Shown piece by piece: positions 4,482 through 27,237 of a stretch of 34,469 nt of DNA; the first letter of the stretch is position 1; every line of letters begins with the position of its first letter. The translations under genes and the position numbers were made by a program. Origin of the DNA: a virus. The DNA lies in the IMG/VR virus record IMGVR_UViG_3300036876_000038, positions 1-34,469 of that record; one strand, written 5' to 3'. The notes under the pieces are model-generated. The model was not told the origin of the DNA and searched no databases. It saw only the letters and a program-made list of their open reading frames with translations.

Positions 4482-4937
4482 TTATTCCACCAAGAAAACT
4501 AGTTGTTTTTTATAAATCTCAAAATCAACTGCTGTTGATTTCCTGCGCTCTAATATTGATTTTCCATCCCAGCGAAAACCTAAGCGTAAATGTATTGATT
4601 TTGATTCTTGTGTTAGTACAAATCCCACGCCAAGTTCTGACTTGACCAATAAAAACATTTTTTCATTATTGGGGTCAAACATAGGCAAGACTGAATCGCC
4701 TTTTTTCCATCCTAACGTATAAGCTAAATCATAGCTTATACGCATTCGAACAAATTTTATTTCATTGTCATTTTTTTTATAGGAGGTAAATTCAACGCGG
4801 CATTCCTCACCTTGCAAAGAGTTTCTGTTTTGCATCCTTCCTGTGTTTATAGGAGCCCAGGAAATTGAATCTATCATATCGCTTAATGTTGATCTTTTAG
4901 TTGTTTGTGCTTTTGCTAAAGCTGCTCGATTTTTCAT
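4482..4937 (-). CDS. Hypothetical protein (151 aa)
   Basis: A basic N-terminus (MKNRAALAKAQTTKRSTLSD) is followed by alternating beta-like segments such as FVRMRISYDLAYTLGWKKGD (about 62-81), with a loop MFDPNNEKMF. The hydrophobic Y-x-L-A-x-x-L-G-W-x-x-G-D pattern is reminiscent of small swapped-hairpin (AbrB-like) DNA-binding folds, but that is a weak impression. AAAAGG lies 6 bases upstream of ATG. Follows its upstream neighbour after 11 bases. Confidence 0.55.
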   Translation of the reverse strand: MKNRAALAKAQTTKRSTLSDMIDSISWAPINTGRMQNRNSLQGEECRVEFTSYKKNDNEIKFVRMRISYDLAYTLGWKKGDSVLPMFDPNNEKMFLLVKSELGVGFVLTQESKSIHLRLGFRWDGKSILERRKSTAVDFEIYKKQLVFLVE

Positions 4938-4948
4938 TTAAAAACCTT

Positions 4949-5314
4949 TTAAATTTGTTTACTGGAAGATATTATTTTTTTCAGTAGATCTAACATTTCT
5001 TCGCCGCTTTTAACTTTTATATGTGTAGCACTCTCCTTGGGTGGGGCTTGTGGCAAAAGTTCATGTGGGTAGGTTAAAGCGCCGCCGTAAACGTCAGTTT
5101 TTAAAGGTAGCTTTTCAGTTAATCCACCCATTGTAAAAATCATTTTTTTTCCGAGATCAATATATAAAATATTTCCATTCTTCAACTTATCGCCATTTAT
5201 GTCCACTACCTGCAAAAGAATATCATCTTCAGAGGTTGATCTTAATCTTAAAAACAATTGGTTCTTGTCTTGCGTCTTTTCTGCTTCGCGTTTATTCCAA
5301 ACTTTAATTTTCAT
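4949..5314 (-). CDS. Hypothetical protein (121 aa)
   Basis: Begins MKIKVWNKREAEKTQDKNQL. Beta-rich through about residue 65 (DILLQVVDINGDKLKNGNIL), a Pro-rich linker (PQAPPKES) and a C-terminal helix ending KKIISSSKQI. No family recognised. It is the first gene after the hairpin at 5332-5361, so it may start a new transcript or translational unit. AAGGGAATC lies just upstream of its ATG. Confidence 0.55.
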   Translation of the reverse strand: MKIKVWNKREAEKTQDKNQLFLRLRSTSEDDILLQVVDINGDKLKNGNILYIDLGKKMIFTMGGLTEKLPLKTDVYGGALTYPHELLPQAPPKESATHIKVKSGEEMLDLLKKIISSSKQI

Positions 5315-5331
5315 ATGATTCCCTTATGTGA

Positions 5332-5361
5332 TTAATTGGTAAGGGCTGCATAACAGCCCTT
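5332..5361. terminator. Hairpin with shared TTAATTGGT flank (copy A)
   Basis: AAGGGCTG and CAGCCCTT form an 8-bp stem around CATAA at 5341-5361, next to TTAATTGGT (5332-5340). T-rich sequence follows the stem on the plus strand; on the minus strand, which carries the genes here, the tail is ACCAATTAATC. It separates the 5368-5439 and 4949-5314 genes. A similar arrangement occurs at 6952-7012. Confidence 0.5.
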
Positions 5362-5367
5362 TATTAT

Positions 5368-5439
5368 TTATATTGGCACTTGTAGGGCAATGACTGTTGC
5401 AAAGACAGCATATATTACAAGCCATGTTAAGCACACCAT
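5368..5439 (-). CDS. Possible 23-residue single-helix membrane peptide
   Basis: ATG-initiated ORF reading MVCLTWLVIYAVFATVIALQ then VPI. Almost the whole peptide is one transmembrane-like segment. GGGG lies 7 bases upstream of the start. It starts 5 bases after the end of the secreted-protein gene at 5444 and stops just before the hairpin at 5341-5361. Such a short ORF may be chance; the hydrophobic run and the ribosome site are the only support. Confidence 0.35.
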   Translation of the reverse strand: MVCLTWLVIYAVFATVIALQVPI

Positions 5440-5443
5440 TGAG

Positions 5444-5863
5444 CTAACCCCGTATAAGACTAACTTGTTTATTTTCATGCGCGACCGTAGAGCATTCGCC
5501 ACGAATGGTCATTATTGCATCTAAATATATCCAATTTTCTGCTAGTGAATGAACATAATATGTTGTGTGAGTAAAATCACTTATTCTTGTTTGATATCCT
5601 TCACCGGATTTAATCGTGACGTTATAACAACTGACAGCTTTAGAATGCCAAGCACCCTTTGCAAATTGCGAGTGGAGCTCTTTGCATATCTCATAGTCCT
5701 GGGTTGCGCCACTTGCATTATTTATAGAAACCTCAAAATACCCAGGATATGTAAATTTCCCGGTTTTCATTACCTCAGTATCTGATTTTGCGACGGCTGC
5801 ACAATTTGCATGCGCATTAACCGATAAAGCTAAACAGCTTATTAAAACTAATTTTTTAAACAT
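5444..5863 (-). CDS. Secreted/periplasmic protein with signal peptide
   Basis: 139 residues. The N-terminus has a textbook signal peptide: MFKK, a hydrophobic core (LVLISCLALSV) and a cleavage site after NAHA (about residue 19). The mature part carries Cys residues at about 21, 60, 79 and 124, consistent with disulfides, and is beta-rich (YPGYFEVSINNASGATQDYE). I do not recognise a family. Phage-encoded exported proteins often alter the host envelope or block superinfection; that role is inference. It lies in the leftward early block between two groups of small genes. Confidence 0.65.
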   Translation of the reverse strand: MFKKLVLISCLALSVNAHANCAAVAKSDTEVMKTGKFTYPGYFEVSINNASGATQDYEICKELHSQFAKGAWHSKAVSCYNVTIKSGEGYQTRISDFTHTTYYVHSLAENWIYLDAIMTIRGECSTVAHENKQVSLIRG

Positions 5864-5930
5864 GAAAATTTCCTAACATAAATTTAAATTTAAATCCTTT
5901 TGTTATTGTCCTGTCGATCTTATTATATCC

Positions 5931-6098
5931 TCAATGCTTTTGCGCTAGTGAAACTGATAGGGGTATCAATGCTAAAATCATGCAAATAAGGCTGAATGCA
6001 TCAAAACCCCAAAACCTTCCATTATTTTTTGCTAAATTAAAGATAAATATTCCAATGTTAATTGACACTATAACAATGCATATCACTTCATTAATCAT
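5931..6098 (-). CDS. Small two-helix membrane protein (55 aa)
   Basis: Begins MINEVICIVIVSINIGIFIF, one transmembrane segment, then NLAKNNGRFWG and a second segment ICMILALIPLSVSLA. The ATG at 6098 overlaps the upstream stop by 8 bases; this start is preferred because the longer form adds residues encoded by the upstream gene in another frame. Its shape would suit a small holin or antiholin, but there is no lysis gene nearby. No family recognised. Confidence 0.55.
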   Translation of the reverse strand: MINEVICIVIVSINIGIFIFNLAKNNGRFWGFDAFSLICMILALIPLSVSLAQKH

Positions 6099-6369
6099 AT
6101 ACTTTAGCTTGTTCAAATCTTTCGTTAATTTCTTTAAACAATGCCAATAACAATTCTTGCACATTTAAAGTTTTATCAGGAACAGCATGCTGTAAGCGCA
6201 GTATAGCTGTGCTGAAAAAACTAGTTATAATGCATATTAAAGCATTGCAAAAACCTTCTGGCGTCCCAATATTTGGAACGCCATGTTTTTCATTGGTTTT
6301 TGATAAAGTATCTAAAAGATCGCTAACCATTTCTTTCAGCACTTCTTCGGTCATTACAAATTTTTTCAT
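6091..6369 (-). CDS. Hypothetical protein (92 aa)
   Basis: Begins MKKFVMTEEVLKEMVSDLLD. Helical, with a central less polar segment (FCNALICIITSFFSTAILRL, about 41-60) and an acidic C-terminus (NERFEQAKVYD). The central segment may be a membrane helix or a buried core. The ATG shares 4 bases with the upstream stop and the stop overlaps the next start, so three genes (6743 to 5931) look translationally coupled. Confidence 0.55.
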   Translation of the reverse strand: MKKFVMTEEVLKEMVSDLLDTLSKTNEKHGVPNIGTPEGFCNALICIITSFFSTAILRLQHAVPDKTLNVQELLLALFKEINERFEQAKVYD

Positions 6370-10053: not shown

Positions 10054-10215
10054 TTATCCGTCAACCTTTTTTTCGCATTTTAATTTAAATTTTTCGATCA
10101 AAGATAACATGATACTGTTAGCTGAAGTTTCCTGAACTATTGTTTGAGTTTTCATAAAAACCCACAAATCCTTAGGCATTCTGACTAACATTGTCTTTGG
10201 TTCAATTGCTTGCAT
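10054..10215 (-). CDS. Arc/MetJ-like ribbon-helix-helix regulator (53 aa)
   Basis: Begins MQAIEPKTMLVRMPKDLWVF. The order strand (TMLVRMP), helix (KDLWVFMKTQTI), turn, helix (ANSIMLSLIEKFK) is that of Arc-type repressors, where S-A-N-S-I-x-x-x-L-I closely follows the usual S-x-N-S-x-I-x-x-L-I. AAGGGG lies 10 bases before the ATG. It is the first gene of the leftward block and faces the rightward replication genes, so it is the best candidate for the switch protein of this divergent region. Confidence 0.7.
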   Translation of the reverse strand: MQAIEPKTMLVRMPKDLWVFMKTQTIVQETSANSIMLSLIEKFKLKCEKKVDG

Positions 10216-10309
10216 ATGTAAAATTCCCCTTTAAAATTCAATTGCTTGTGCTACTTATATAATATATCATTGATATTAAGTGATTTTAACTTTTAAGGCA
10301 AGTACTTTT
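10201..10309. promoter_or_regulatory. Divergent control region with 12-bp direct repeat and overlapping -10 boxes
   Basis: TTCAATTGCTTG occurs at 10201-10212, inside the first codons of the RHH gene, and again at 10237-10248, exactly 36 bases apart. A plus-strand TATAAT lies at 10258-10263, and its complement at 10259-10264 reads TATTAT for the leftward direction. No convincing -35 box was found for either. The repeats sit where an autoregulator would act. Confidence 0.55.
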
Positions 10310-10663
10310 GTGCAAAATATAAAGATACCTCCATTCGGCTGGCCACTCTATAAGATCCAAAAAGCCGGTCGTCGTCCTGCAAATTCAGTTTGTTTATTCA
10401 TCGGCCATAAAGCCTGGAAAGACGCCAAGAGCTTTGCAGAGGTATACCCTAAGCGCACGCTTATGATTCCGCCATATCTATCGGCAAATGAATTCTTTTG
10501 GCCGGTCAAGGGCTGTGACATTTTGATATTCGATTCGGGTTGGGGTGGCGTAGACTATGTAGACGAAGTTGTTGCGCGACTTTACAAGGATGGAGCGCAT
10601 ATGGTGCGCTCTGTGAGCTATGAAAATAAATTAACTGTACATCAAAAGGACTTGTCATTATGA
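10310..10663 (+). CDS. Hypothetical protein upstream of the replicative helicase (117 aa)
   Basis: Mixed alpha/beta protein with PPFGWPLYKIQKAGRRPANS near the start, FIGHKAW, and CDILIFDSGWGGVDYVDEVV at about 79-98 (a strand ending in Asp as in nucleotide-binding folds, but with no P-loop). The GTG at 10310 is chosen because AAGG lies upstream, while the earlier in-frame GTG at 10280 abuts the -10 box and has no ribosome site. It overlaps the helicase gene by 4 bases (ATGA), so the two are coupled and a replication role is likely. Family not recognised. Confidence 0.6.
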   Translation: MQNIKIPPFGWPLYKIQKAGRRPANSVCLFIGHKAWKDAKSFAEVYPKRTLMIPPYLSANEFFWPVKGCDILIFDSGWGGVDYVDEVVARLYKDGAHMVRSVSYENKLTVHQKDLSL

Positions 10664-11652
10664 ATTTCAATGATCCAATATCCGATTACCCGCAGCTTGA
10701 CTTAGAGAATGTTATTCCGATTCATGCGAATACCGAGCTTAACAAAATGAACCCGCTTACTTATGATGAAATCATCGTTTCAAACCCTGCACCTATGCAA
10801 TACGTTGTTTACCCCTGGCTACCCACGCAAGGTATAGCGTTTATCTATGCCGCAACTGGTGTGGGTAAAACCCTATTTGCGCTCAATGTCGCCTATGCAA
10901 TCGCGGCGGGCGGTAACTTTCTAAAATTTAAATGCCCAAAGCCTCGCAAGGTACTCTATATAGACGGGGAAATGGCTTATAGCCAGCTGCACTCACGGTT
11001 TATGGATGTTGTGAAGCAACAAGGCGCTCTTACTTACCCGGAAAACTTTCACCTTCTAACCCCTGAAAAAGCAATATTTACCCTTCCACGGATCTGCAGT
11101 GTCGAAGGCCAAGAGTACTATTATAAGAAAATTGTAGAGTTGGGCATCGAAGTTCTTGTGCTTGATAATCTCTCCACGCTATCCGCTATCGACGAAAACA
11201 ATTCCGAACAATGGAAGGTCATTCAAGACTGGTTAATTTATTTGCGTTCAAAAGGCATTTCAACACTTATCGTCCACCATGCTGGTAAAGAAAAGCGTGG
11301 GTATCGTGGTACATCTCGGATGCTAGATTGTGCAGATACTGCCATATCGCTTCAAGATGTATCAAGCGGACAAATGGAAAATGAAGTTGATAACGAGAAG
11401 AAATTTAAGATTGAGTATCAAAAGAGCAGATCTTTTGGTGGACAAGACTCACTTTCGTTTGAAGTTTCGCTTACCGCTCAAGGTTGGACTTATGAGTCAT
11501 TGGAGAAATCTAATACAATTCGAATCATTGAAATGTTCTCGGAGCTCAAAATTAAGCCAGCTGACATTGCAAACGAGCTGGGTATAAATCGATCACATGT
11601 ATATAGAATAATCAAACGTGCTAAGCGTGATGGGCTGATTCGGAGCGAATAA
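10660..11652 (+). CDS. RepA/AAA_25-type replicative helicase with C-terminal HTH
   Basis: 330 residues. Walker A AATGVGKT at 64-71, a VLYIDGEM strand at 98-105, Walker B VLVLDN at 165-170, then IVHHAGK (204-210) and GYRGTSR (214-220), the typical order of AAA_25 and RSF1010 RepA-like hexameric helicases. Residues 298-320 (IKPADIANELGINRSHVYRI) form a helix-turn-helix not needed for the motor and likely to give sequence-specific DNA contact. The repeat array immediately downstream (11684-11925) is the natural target. No separate primase or DNA polymerase is seen, so host enzymes would finish replication. Confidence 0.8.
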   Translation: MNFNDPISDYPQLDLENVIPIHANTELNKMNPLTYDEIIVSNPAPMQYVVYPWLPTQGIAFIYAATGVGKTLFALNVAYAIAAGGNFLKFKCPKPRKVLYIDGEMAYSQLHSRFMDVVKQQGALTYPENFHLLTPEKAIFTLPRICSVEGQEYYYKKIVELGIEVLVLDNLSTLSAIDENNSEQWKVIQDWLIYLRSKGISTLIVHHAGKEKRGYRGTSRMLDCADTAISLQDVSSGQMENEVDNEKKFKIEYQKSRSFGGQDSLSFEVSLTAQGWTYESLEKSNTIRIIEMFSELKIKPADIANELGINRSHVYRIIKRAKRDGLIRSE

Positions 11653-11762
11653 ATTGGGTCTAGGCCGCTCTACGCACGCCTAGTGTACAAACGCACTCAT
11701 ATTCCCCGGAAAGCCTTACTGTGCATGGGTTTGCGCTTGTACACTAACAGGTAGACACCTAG

Positions 11763-11834
11763 TGTACACGGTGGTGTACACGGCCTCTCTTTTGTACACT
11801 TGAGTACACTCTTTTGTACACTGGTTTGTACACT
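11763..11834 (+). repeat. Dense iteron cluster (TGTACACT family)
   Basis: Six copies start at 11763, 11775, 11793, 11803, 11815 and 11827, giving spacings of 12, 18, 10, 12 and 12 bases. The last four read TTTGTACACT, TGAGTACACT, TTTGTACACT and TTTGTACACT. Copies would lie on about the same face of the helix. Confidence 0.8.
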
Positions 11835-11844
11835 GGCTTTTTCT

Positions 11845-11880
11845 CTTATATATATGATTATATTATATATATTATATATA
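11845..11880. promoter_or_regulatory. AT-rich unwinding-type tract
   Basis: Thirty-six bases made of TTATATA and ATTATATA-like runs with a single G, immediately followed by another TGTACACT. It is the easiest place in the region to melt and fits a DNA unwinding element. It could also hide promoter -10 boxes for the gene at 11954. Confidence 0.55.
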
Positions 11881-11953
11881 TGTACACTAGAGAGCCCGAG
11901 CGGTCTATTTTCGGGTAAGTGTACACCTGTAAAATTATGGAGAAAATTTTAAA

Positions 11954-12136
11954 ATGGATTCTTTTTTGGACAGCAAAATTAAGTTATTTCAATTGATTAA
12001 AAAAATATCAGATCATTACGGTGGTGAAGACATCGAATTGCTTCACGATTACCAAATTGACGTTTTGGAGAAATATAAAAATAATCTCATTCAGGTGATT
12101 GCTTATTTTGAAGATGAATTGAAAAAGTTAACCTGA
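11954..12136 (+). CDS. Hypothetical acidic helical protein (60 aa)
   Basis: Begins MDSFLDSKIKLFQLIKKISD and ends FEDELKKLT. It is predicted all-helical with possible coiled-coil character. GGAG lies 14 bases before the ATG, rather far. It is the first gene after the putative origin and precedes the nuclease operon. No family recognised. Confidence 0.55.
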   Translation: MDSFLDSKIKLFQLIKKISDHYGGEDIELLHDYQIDVLEKYKNNLIQVIAYFEDELKKLT

Positions 12137-12165
12137 GTGGTTAATCACTGGTTAACCTGGTTAAC
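12127..12165 (+). repeat. Cluster of GGTTAAC boxes
   Basis: GTTAACC (12127-12133), GGTTAATC (12139-12146), GGTTAACC (12150-12157) and GGTTAAC (12159-12165) lie within 39 bases, spaced 9 to 12 bases, at the end of one gene and before the next. GTTAAC is palindromic. They look like tandem operators or a second, smaller iteron set. Confidence 0.5.
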
Positions 12166-25365: not shown

Positions 25366-27237
25366 GTGAGCGAATCTAAGGATTTTCCCATTGTTGGAAG
25401 CTATAACAGCCAATTAGGTTCGACCATTGATTGCGAAAGGTCTGTTAATTGTTTTGAATATACGGACGCTTTAGGCAAGAAACAAAAAGCATTAATTGGA
25501 ACGTCTGGGCTTATTAATACAGGCTTTGTGTTTGGCGCTGAAACAGGCGCATTTCGCGCACAATATGTTTACGGTACAGCTCAATTTTTTGCTGTTGGGG
25601 CATCGTTATTCCGTATAAGCAATTCAACCGTGCTAAGCAAAATAGGGACTTTTAACACACCTGCAGGCTATGTAGGTGTTGATGGAAACTCTTTCCAGGT
25701 TATGTTTGTTGACGGCGTTAATGGGTACATATGGGACACACTAGCTAATACTTTTGCCATAATAACTGACGCAAGTTTTCCTACAGCGCCAATTGACGTC
25801 TGTACACTGGATGGTTTTTTTGTAGTTGCTAACGCGAATACACCGGACTTTTATCTATCAAGCTTCAATCAAGGCATGGTCTGGGGACCTTCAGCGAACA
25901 ACTACACCACCAATTTTGCGGGAATTAACACACAGGTTACGGTTGGCGCAAGCACTCTAACAGGTGGTGCAGCGGGTACACAAAATTATAGAACCGGAAT
26001 CCCTGTTGTGGTGGTATCCTCTGGTACGCTTTCGGCACCACTGGTTGCGGGCGTTACTTATTACACTATTTACACCAACGGCACTACAATTAAGCTTGCG
26101 ACAACTTATGCAAACGCCATTGCCGGAATTGCTATCGCATTCACAGGGGACGGTACGGGGACACAAACCATAACGTCTTTAGGTCAACTGCAGAAAGGTT
26201 CTATAACGTCACATCCCGGAAACATTGTGGCTTGCAGAACGCTACATAGAAAGCTGTTTCTATTCAGTTCATTTTTCACTGAAGTTTGGGAAAATGCGGG
26301 TATCGGTACAAACCTACCTTTCAGACGTAATAATTCGCTATTGATGGAATATGGCACCGCATCAATTGGTAGTGTTTGCGCTAGCTTCGATCTATTGGTA
26401 TTCCAGGGCTTAGACCGTGATGGTTTAGGCGCTGTCATGATGGTGCGCGGCACTGAAGCAATACCCATAAGCACAAGAGCATTAAATGTGGTACTAGGTC
26501 GCTATGCGGTGCTTGGACAACTTACAGACTGCAGCGGTTATTTAATCCGTGAAAACGGCTTAATTTTTTATCGAATGAATTTTACAGCCGCAAACCACAC
26601 ATGGGTTTACAACGTAACGCAAAGCGACCCGTCACAAGATGAAACAAAAAAATGGCATGAAGAAGAAGTCTTAAACGGCAATCGTCACCCTGCACAAACA
26701 CATGCTTTTTTTAACGGTAAAAGCTATGTAGGAAGCTATTTAGGTCCCGTACTTTATCAAGTATCACCGGTCACTTATACGAACGATGGTGAAGTTATTC
26801 GACGCATGCGCATCACGCGTCCTATTGTTCCACCTGGTTATCAGCGCTTGCGCATCGACCGTTTACAAGTCGACATGCTGCAAGGCAATGCTGCAGAGCT
26901 CGATCCCGTTTCTGAGGAGCTCGATTTATTTACAGAAAACGATTTAAACCTGCTAACAGAAACAGGGATCAATATTGCGCTTGAGCAAAGCATAGTTATT
27001 TACGATCCTCAGCATTTATACCTATTTTTATCCATCTCAAAAGACGGCGGTCAAGTTTATGGATACAGAGAGCGTGCGCCGATGGGATTCATTGGACAAC
27101 GAACATATAGAACGCTCTGGCGCAAACGCGGTACTACCGTGCGTGGCCAAGGCTTCGTTGGAAAGTTCGAATATTTTGGATCTGCACCTTTCGTTGTGCT
27201 GGGTGCGTCTTGGTGTGTTGAGCAATTACCGGAATAA
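25366..27237 (+). CDS. P22 gp10-like packaged-DNA stabilisation protein
   Basis: 623 residues (P22 gp10 is 472). The opening SESKDFPIVGSYNSQLGSTI followed by DCERSVNCFEYTD and the repeated beta-blade pattern, for example FQVMFVDGVNGYIWD and GKSYVGSYLGPVLYQV, fit the phage stabilisation protein family, a beta-propeller tail hub. GTG start, directly after the gp4-like stop by 2 bases. It contains the insert at about 210-272 that is related to the one in the gp4-like protein. DLFTENDLNLLTETGI near the C-terminal third recalls the motif of the 34183 gene. Confidence 0.78.
   Translation: MSESKDFPIVGSYNSQLGSTIDCERSVNCFEYTDALGKKQKALIGTSGLINTGFVFGAETGAFRAQYVYGTAQFFAVGASLFRISNSTVLSKIGTFNTPAGYVGVDGNSFQVMFVDGVNGYIWDTLANTFAIITDASFPTAPIDVCTLDGFFVVANANTPDFYLSSFNQGMVWGPSANNYTTNFAGINTQVTVGASTLTGGAAGTQNYRTGIPVVVVSSGTLSAPLVAGVTYYTIYTNGTTIKLATTYANAIAGIAIAFTGDGTGTQTITSLGQLQKGSITSHPGNIVACRTLHRKLFLFSSFFTEVWENAGIGTNLPFRRNNSLLMEYGTASIGSVCASFDLLVFQGLDRDGLGAVMMVRGTEAIPISTRALNVVLGRYAVLGQLTDCSGYLIRENGLIFYRMNFTAANHTWVYNVTQSDPSQDETKKWHEEEVLNGNRHPAQTHAFFNGKSYVGSYLGPVLYQVSPVTYTNDGEVIRRMRITRPIVPPGYQRLRIDRLQVDMLQGNAAELDPVSEELDLFTENDLNLLTETGINIALEQSIVIYDPQHLYLFLSISKDGGQVYGYRERAPMGFIGQRTYRTLWRKRGTTVRGQGFVGKFEYFGSAPFVVLGASWCVEQLPE

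Follow-up and report, generated by a model that had tools for sequence, protein, structure and literature searches.

We analysed a 34,469-nt virus record (the window, meaning the whole of this stretch of DNA) that carries terminase, portal and coat genes of phage type, and in which a replicative helicase gene is followed directly by an array of short boxes. The features of this region are given below by position; a dot marks features without a strand.

10280–10663, strand +: small ORF, 127 aa, directly upstream of the helicase, with homologues in relatives
10660–11652, strand +: 330-aa replicative helicase of RepA type (AAA_25, RecA-fold), HTH at the C-terminus; proposed to serve as initiator and motor
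11500–11628, strand +: C-terminal HTH domain, residues 281–323; three modelled helices, pLDDT about 84–93
11587–11610, strand +: recognition helix segment NRSHVYRI, residues 310–317; best box predictor in the covariation scan
11682–11925 (244 nt), strand. : ten boxes of the type AGTGTACA forming an array; proposed iterons (8 exact, 2 with one mismatch)
11682–11689, strand +: box 1, AGTGTACA
11738–11745, strand −: box 2, AGTGTACA
11761–11768, strand +: box 3, AGTGTACA
11773–11780, strand +: box 4, GGTGTACA, one mismatch
11793–11800, strand −: box 5, AGTGTACA
11803–11810, strand −: box 6, AGTGTACT, one mismatch; the sole non-TGTACA box, also given as AGTACACT
11815–11822, strand −: box 7, AGTGTACA
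11827–11834, strand −: box 8, AGTGTACA
11846–11880, strand. : A/T tract (34 of 35 A/T), proposed DNA unwinding element
11881–11888, strand −: box 9, AGTGTACA, past the A/T tract
11918–11925, strand +: box 10, AGTGTACA, past the A/T tract
11954–12136, strand +: small conserved ORF, 60 aa, which closes the replication slot and also lies 3' of O-type initiators in relatives

Helicase and box array

The helicase matched AAA_25 (E = 8 × 10−27) and, above the cut-off, HTH_23 in Pfam. Its core is a RecA fold with Walker motifs and is closest to RepA: RSF1010 RepA is the closest solved structure (1g8y, best by phmmer; fold Z 23.7, VIA), and RepA entries were also best in Foldseek with the helicase model. 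The AlphaFold (AF2) model (whole-protein pLDDT 87.5) places the HTH helices at residues 281–294, 300–307 and 311–323, in agreement with the initial annotation, which had the gene end in an HTH. The helicase is without a primase domain. We identified no partner primase or polymerase in the window, and among the neighbouring proteins scanned we recognised neither a RepC-like family nor ParA or ParB.

The first box begins 30 nt past the helicase stop, and the array is intergenic. TGTACA occurs nine times exactly and once as a variant within 242 nt (11684–11925), so that the ten TGTACA-type boxes reported initially were borne out by count, with the tenth at 11803–11810; the central spacings reported with them (12, 18, 10, 12 and 12) were right to within one base. 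A count over the whole window, which had been proposed as a check, gave 17 TGTACA against 9.3 expected, and the eight outside the array are scattered at about the expected rate. A unit longer than the hexamer is more informative. Of the nine exact copies of the full box AGTGTACA in the 34 kb, eight belong to the array and the ninth stands at 25801; for AGTGTAC the figures are nine within the array and two in the rest of the window. Nine copies of AGTGTAC within 470 nt around the helicase stop correspond to a Poisson P of 2 × 10−17, compared with a best value of 8 × 10−6 in 60 dinucleotide shuffles and of 4 × 10−5 at 10 other gene ends of the locus. The DnaA box TTATNCACA, which iteron plasmids using DnaA have near their iterons, is absent from the window.

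The near-pure A/T tract of the initial annotation is the top 35-mer for A/T in the whole window, with boxes 1–8 before it and boxes 9 and 10 after it. Between the last two boxes (11893–11915), a short inverted repeat, CCCGA...TCGGG, was seen by eye in a G/C-richer stretch, and several relatives have G/C-rich stretches at the matching place. GC skew switches sign near 11 kb, where gene orientation switches too.

Arrays behind related helicases

A query with the window helicase as a single protein returned no match and an alignment query was needed to find relatives, of which 136 distinct helicases were gathered (loci are numbered with the prefix L). The first two found, L081 and L041, have arrays in the same place with the words GGTTAAT/C and TGGAATA. 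Arrays at P < 10−7 past the helicase stop were detected in 40 of the 98 relatives with enough flank (about 40%); at 575 control gene ends in these 98 loci, 5 loci reached that level, and 2 did so in at least one of 60 shuffles each. Arrays were associated with the C-terminal tail, being present behind 1 of 11 helicases without it and 57 of 116 long-tailed ones (Fisher p = 0.011, with two tails, L183 and L107, reclassified by eye after the tail-length classifier had misplaced them); for about half of the long-tailed relatives no array was found by the criterion used.

Within the clade of the window helicase, the words were AGTGTACA in the window, GGTTAA-type in L081, L092 and L202, GGGTACT in L275, TGATTCA in L277, L093, L200 and L281, TGGAATA in L041 and TGATTAC in L095. 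All 11 non-redundant clade members compared have an array behind the helicase, arrays being one entry criterion for the comparison, and related helicases lacking an array, named beforehand as one observation that would refute an origin, did not turn up among them. An exact search of viral contigs for the double box TGTACACTNNTTTGTACACT returned seven records with a comparable array in none, and the letters of the box are therefore not conserved. Conservation in relatives thus extends to the presence and position of the array, and in part of the clade to its geometry, but not to the TGTACA letters, since the box changes with the recognition helix.

Named phages and plasmids yielded distant helicases only. 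No array was found at the place tested in Serratia phage Serbin, a Synechocystis plasmid, an IncQ2 plasmid or Vibrio phage 82E33.2, and pATHE01 has only four AGAGCAA there. Dense arrays right past the stop were also seen with primase-helicases or helicases that have a different C-terminal domain (L104, L109–L112, L133, L138, L139, L141, L144, L146, L147, L149, L150, L185 and L191), with words such as GGTGCTA (10 copies), TCGCGCA (13) and CGCAACC (14). The Chlamydiae relatives L155, L161 and L169 combine a TKSQVETR helix with three copies each of AATCGGA/TCGGAAA past the stop, a weak signal below threshold.

Covariation of recognition helix and box

We assessed whether box similarity follows the eight residues that open the third HTH helix or the helicase core in 44 non-redundant helicase–array pairs. 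Array presence was an entry criterion for this set, and the test therefore speaks on letters and not on presence. Across all pairs, box and helix similarity were correlated (r = 0.38; partial r given the core = 0.32, p = 0.0002). The correlation was strongest in the window clade (11 members; r = 0.72, partial r = 0.71, p = 0.0002), where box and core were nearly uncorrelated (r = 0.13), and was weaker outside it (partial r = 0.27, p = 0.0006); these are Mantel tests, which are liberal where sequences share ancestry. When 271 eight-residue windows were scanned along the protein, residues 310–317, at the start of the third modelled helix, had the highest rank in the window clade, and in the full set the nine top-scoring windows all fell within that helix. 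With the window clade removed, a core segment (192–199) tied with the helix, which counts against the model. L081 has 74% of the core in common with the window but little of the helix, and the boxes of the two are barely more alike than average, while L081, L092 and L202 have both helix features and box in common.

We compared this set with loci fetched later, which came from bacterial genomes and from one plasmid. Six of the seven with a close helix match carried the box of the near neighbour or one sharing its core: TGGGACA was predicted and present in L358, L360 and the Nitrobacter plasmid L345, L348 has AGGAAAC with GGAAAC in common with its neighbour, L350 has GCGCAAC, and L351 has GCGCAAC, of which its second neighbour shares GCAAC. 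In L366 the match was narrowly missed. Among the helix–box combinations are SKSKVDRL, SKSRVDRL and SKSTVNRM with TGGGACA, and SKGYVSKV with AGGAAAC, and the later loci added new words (GTAAACA, 11 copies; TGGAACA, 9; TGCGACA, 7). Over the 44 pairs, the nearest helix predicted a similar box in 19 cases compared with 14 for the nearest core, and prediction from the helix succeeds only where there is a close neighbour. These comparisons indicate that the letters of the box in the window clade follow the recognition helix of the fused HTH rather than the helicase core. Together with the arrays of the relatives, they support the earlier proposal of an iteron-like array beside an HTH that could read it.

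Box geometry

With the last box ahead of the A/T tract as zero, boxes in the window stand at −145, −89, −66, −54, −34, −24, −12, 0, +54 and +91, those of L092 at −143, −87, −75, −64, −52, −33, −23, −11, 0 and +54, and those of L202 at −146, −89, −79, −68, −45, −34, −23, −11, 0 and +54, with a largely similar pattern of orientations in all three. Compared with eight relatives whose letters differ, 42 positions coincided within 2 bp against 27 expected from shuffled intervals (p = 0.0002), a test in which three registers were set by hand and whose signal comes mainly from L092, L202, L081 and L041. The window's geometry recurs clearly in L092 and L202 and weakly in L081 and L041; with the register used, it did not recur in L275, L277, L200 or L095. 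Several relatives have the A/T tract in a matching place relative to the boxes. The tract stands out in most members of the window clade; in many other relatives it does not, which counts against the model.

Exchange of initiators in a shared slot

We also compared the initiator slot among relatives with terminases up to 80% identical. The flanks of the slot are shared, with the RHH-like (ribbon-helix-helix-like) or another upstream ORF before it and the small ORF and a VRR nuclease after it, while the initiator itself varies. That of L007 and L038 is O-like (a phrog_270 replication initiator in L007), with GCGCA inside the gene at 17.7 and 19.1 per kb, respectively, against 1.7 and 1.8 elsewhere, and L080 has an HTH_36 protein with five CAGTCCC inside. 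Other AAA_25 helicases occupy the slot in L039, L040 and L055, each with its own array within 1–28 nt (CGGACAG, 10 copies; GGCAAAC, 11; AGCGATC, 6). In L042 (1324–2862) the gene encodes a VapE-like AAA+ helicase (PF05272) and is followed 8 nt later by nine CCTGTCA; the layout thus survives a swap to an unrelated helicase family. L022 has an AAA_25 helicase and then seven GGAATC recognised by eye, an array that the automatic scan missed. In this lineage, therefore, helicase initiators have the array behind the gene and O-type initiators, where repeats were found, have them inside. A further terminase relative, L066, has an IS605 OrfB/TnpB-like gene upstream of its terminase (4759–6189).

The 127-aa ORF has homologues in L055, L202, L042, L040, L095, L200 and L041, and stands before other helicases in L055, L042 and L040. 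L081 and L039 have a Toprim_3 primase in its place, and the product of the ORF may be a Toprim-like protein in degenerate form. GTTAAC occurs three times where the 60-aa ORF ends and just past it (12127–12165), close to the word of the L081 origin boxes; these words may be due to chance or may be a relic of another origin.

Function of the array

We consider it highly likely, on the strength of these sequence comparisons, that 11682–11925 is the phage's replication origin and that the adjoining helicase is its initiator, held at the boxes by its HTH and loading itself. The C-terminal HTH would bind the AGTGTACA boxes with one recognition helix, and we infer one subunit, per box, which would collect helicase subunits next to the A/T tract. 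The tract would then open and the hexamer would load itself on the single strand, with neither a separate origin-binding protein nor a helicase loader.

An operator, through which the HTH tail or another repressor would control the replication operon or later genes while replication starts elsewhere, appears improbable. The TGTACA hexamer is palindromic, HTHs of the helicase-tail kind are common in repressors, and the RHH-like ORF (10054–10215) and a single TGTACA just before the helicase start (10636) both lie upstream of the helicase, all of which would suit regulation. Ten boxes of mixed orientation over 244 nt, with an A/T tract between them and behind the gene, would however make an unusual operator; moreover, the tail that covaries with the boxes is part of the helicase, and the slot is a replication slot. 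The RHH-like ORF was rejected as the box reader since it is also present in the O-type relatives L007 and L038 and does not track the array. That ORF enters again into the least probable reading, a partition or centromere site with a separate protein as its reader, comparable to the repeats of plasmid-prophages: clustered short repeats beside an RHH-like ORF resemble some plasmid centromeres, but the scanned neighbours include no recognisable ParA or ParB, the specificity of the boxes tracks the helicase tail, and arrays recur in relatives where we found neither the small ORF nor the RHH-like one.

Only marginally less remote is a separate protein, for example the product of the 60-aa ORF, that would bind to the boxes and bring in the helicase in the manner of RepC, the HTH tail having another role. 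RSF1010 RepA does work with a separate RepC (PMC8965321), and the 60-aa ORF is conserved beside the array. The same ORF also lies behind the O-type initiators of L007 and L038, however, was not found with many arrays and matched no DNA-binding family, and the RepA gene of the IncQ2 plasmid compared here is followed by repC, with no array directly behind RepA.

Discussion

The best reading of the locus is an initiator–helicase replicon that would work like the Rep-ori systems of SaPIs and PICIs, with a RecA-fold helicase of the RSF1010 RepA type. In SaPI/PICI Rep-ori and SCCmec Cch2, the origin lies directly 3' of the initiator–helicase gene and has many short iterons, sets of which flank an A/T-rich region and are read by the C-terminal domain of the helicase, with a specificity that varies by member (PMC6092414, PMC7581432). 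The window resembles these in layout, with boxes 1–8, the A/T tract and boxes 9 and 10 placed 3' of the helicase, and the helix–box covariation is an indirect sign that the C-terminal domain may read the boxes here too. The helicases differ, being DUF927 or Primase_C/D5-like in SaPIs, PICIs and Cch2 and AAA_25 RecA-fold, in a tailed phage, in the window. RSF1010 RepA, in contrast, is loaded at an origin melted by RepC (PMC8965321), and the IncQ helicase has no DNA-reading tail, whereas that of the window has an HTH tail with an array next to it. PrimQH primases also fuse a C-terminal DNA-binding domain, a winged helix, to a RepA-type helicase, for which the authors suggest possible origin recognition (PMC5862659); they differ from the window in having a primase domain, and no iterons are reported there as matched to the tail.

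In lambda O, P22 gp18 and phage L gp18, iterons go with an origin-binding protein that diverges fast, and each has its own word; the P22 origin does lie inside gene 18, as stated in the initial annotation (PMC8022706). Those initiators are not helicases and their iterons are intragenic, unlike the helicase and intergenic array of the window, and both types share one slot in this phage lineage. Close relatives of this phage have O-type initiators with intragenic repeats in the slot. For the replication strategy proposed as different from that of P22, "plasmid-like" is a poorer description than "PICI/SaPI-like". In the PLE RepA–ori system, initiator and iterons (three repeats of ~30 bp) swap as matched pairs, and such change is under known pressure from a phage nuclease cutting PLE origins (PMC8263062); the PLE initiator is of a different kind from the window helicase, and no origin-cutting nuclease is known for the window system. 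We found no description of a RepA-type helicase combined with an HTH tail and an array in the open-access literature that we searched, most subscription papers lying outside this coverage.

Taken on sequence evidence, the helicase and array of this soil phage are very probably a self-contained start site for copying its genome. We find it somewhat probable that they belong to a broad undescribed class of replicons, in which RepA-type helicases load themselves at boxes read by their tails, and in which a few residues of the recognition helix and all of the roughly ten boxes have repeatedly changed together with the geometry kept in at least part of the class. The approach offers a computational route to replication origins in uncultured phages and mobile elements, and extends the PICI-like layout of helicase gene followed by iterons to an unrelated helicase in tailed phages. 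The dozens of matched helix–box pairs are material on how an initiator and ten sites shift specificity together, a joint change that is an open question of origin evolution. If the broad class holds, the box would be readable from the helix (for example, SKSKxxR would give TGGGACA, SKSQVSK GGAAAC and SQPTVNR TGAATCA), and origins in metagenomic phages could be located from the initiator alone.
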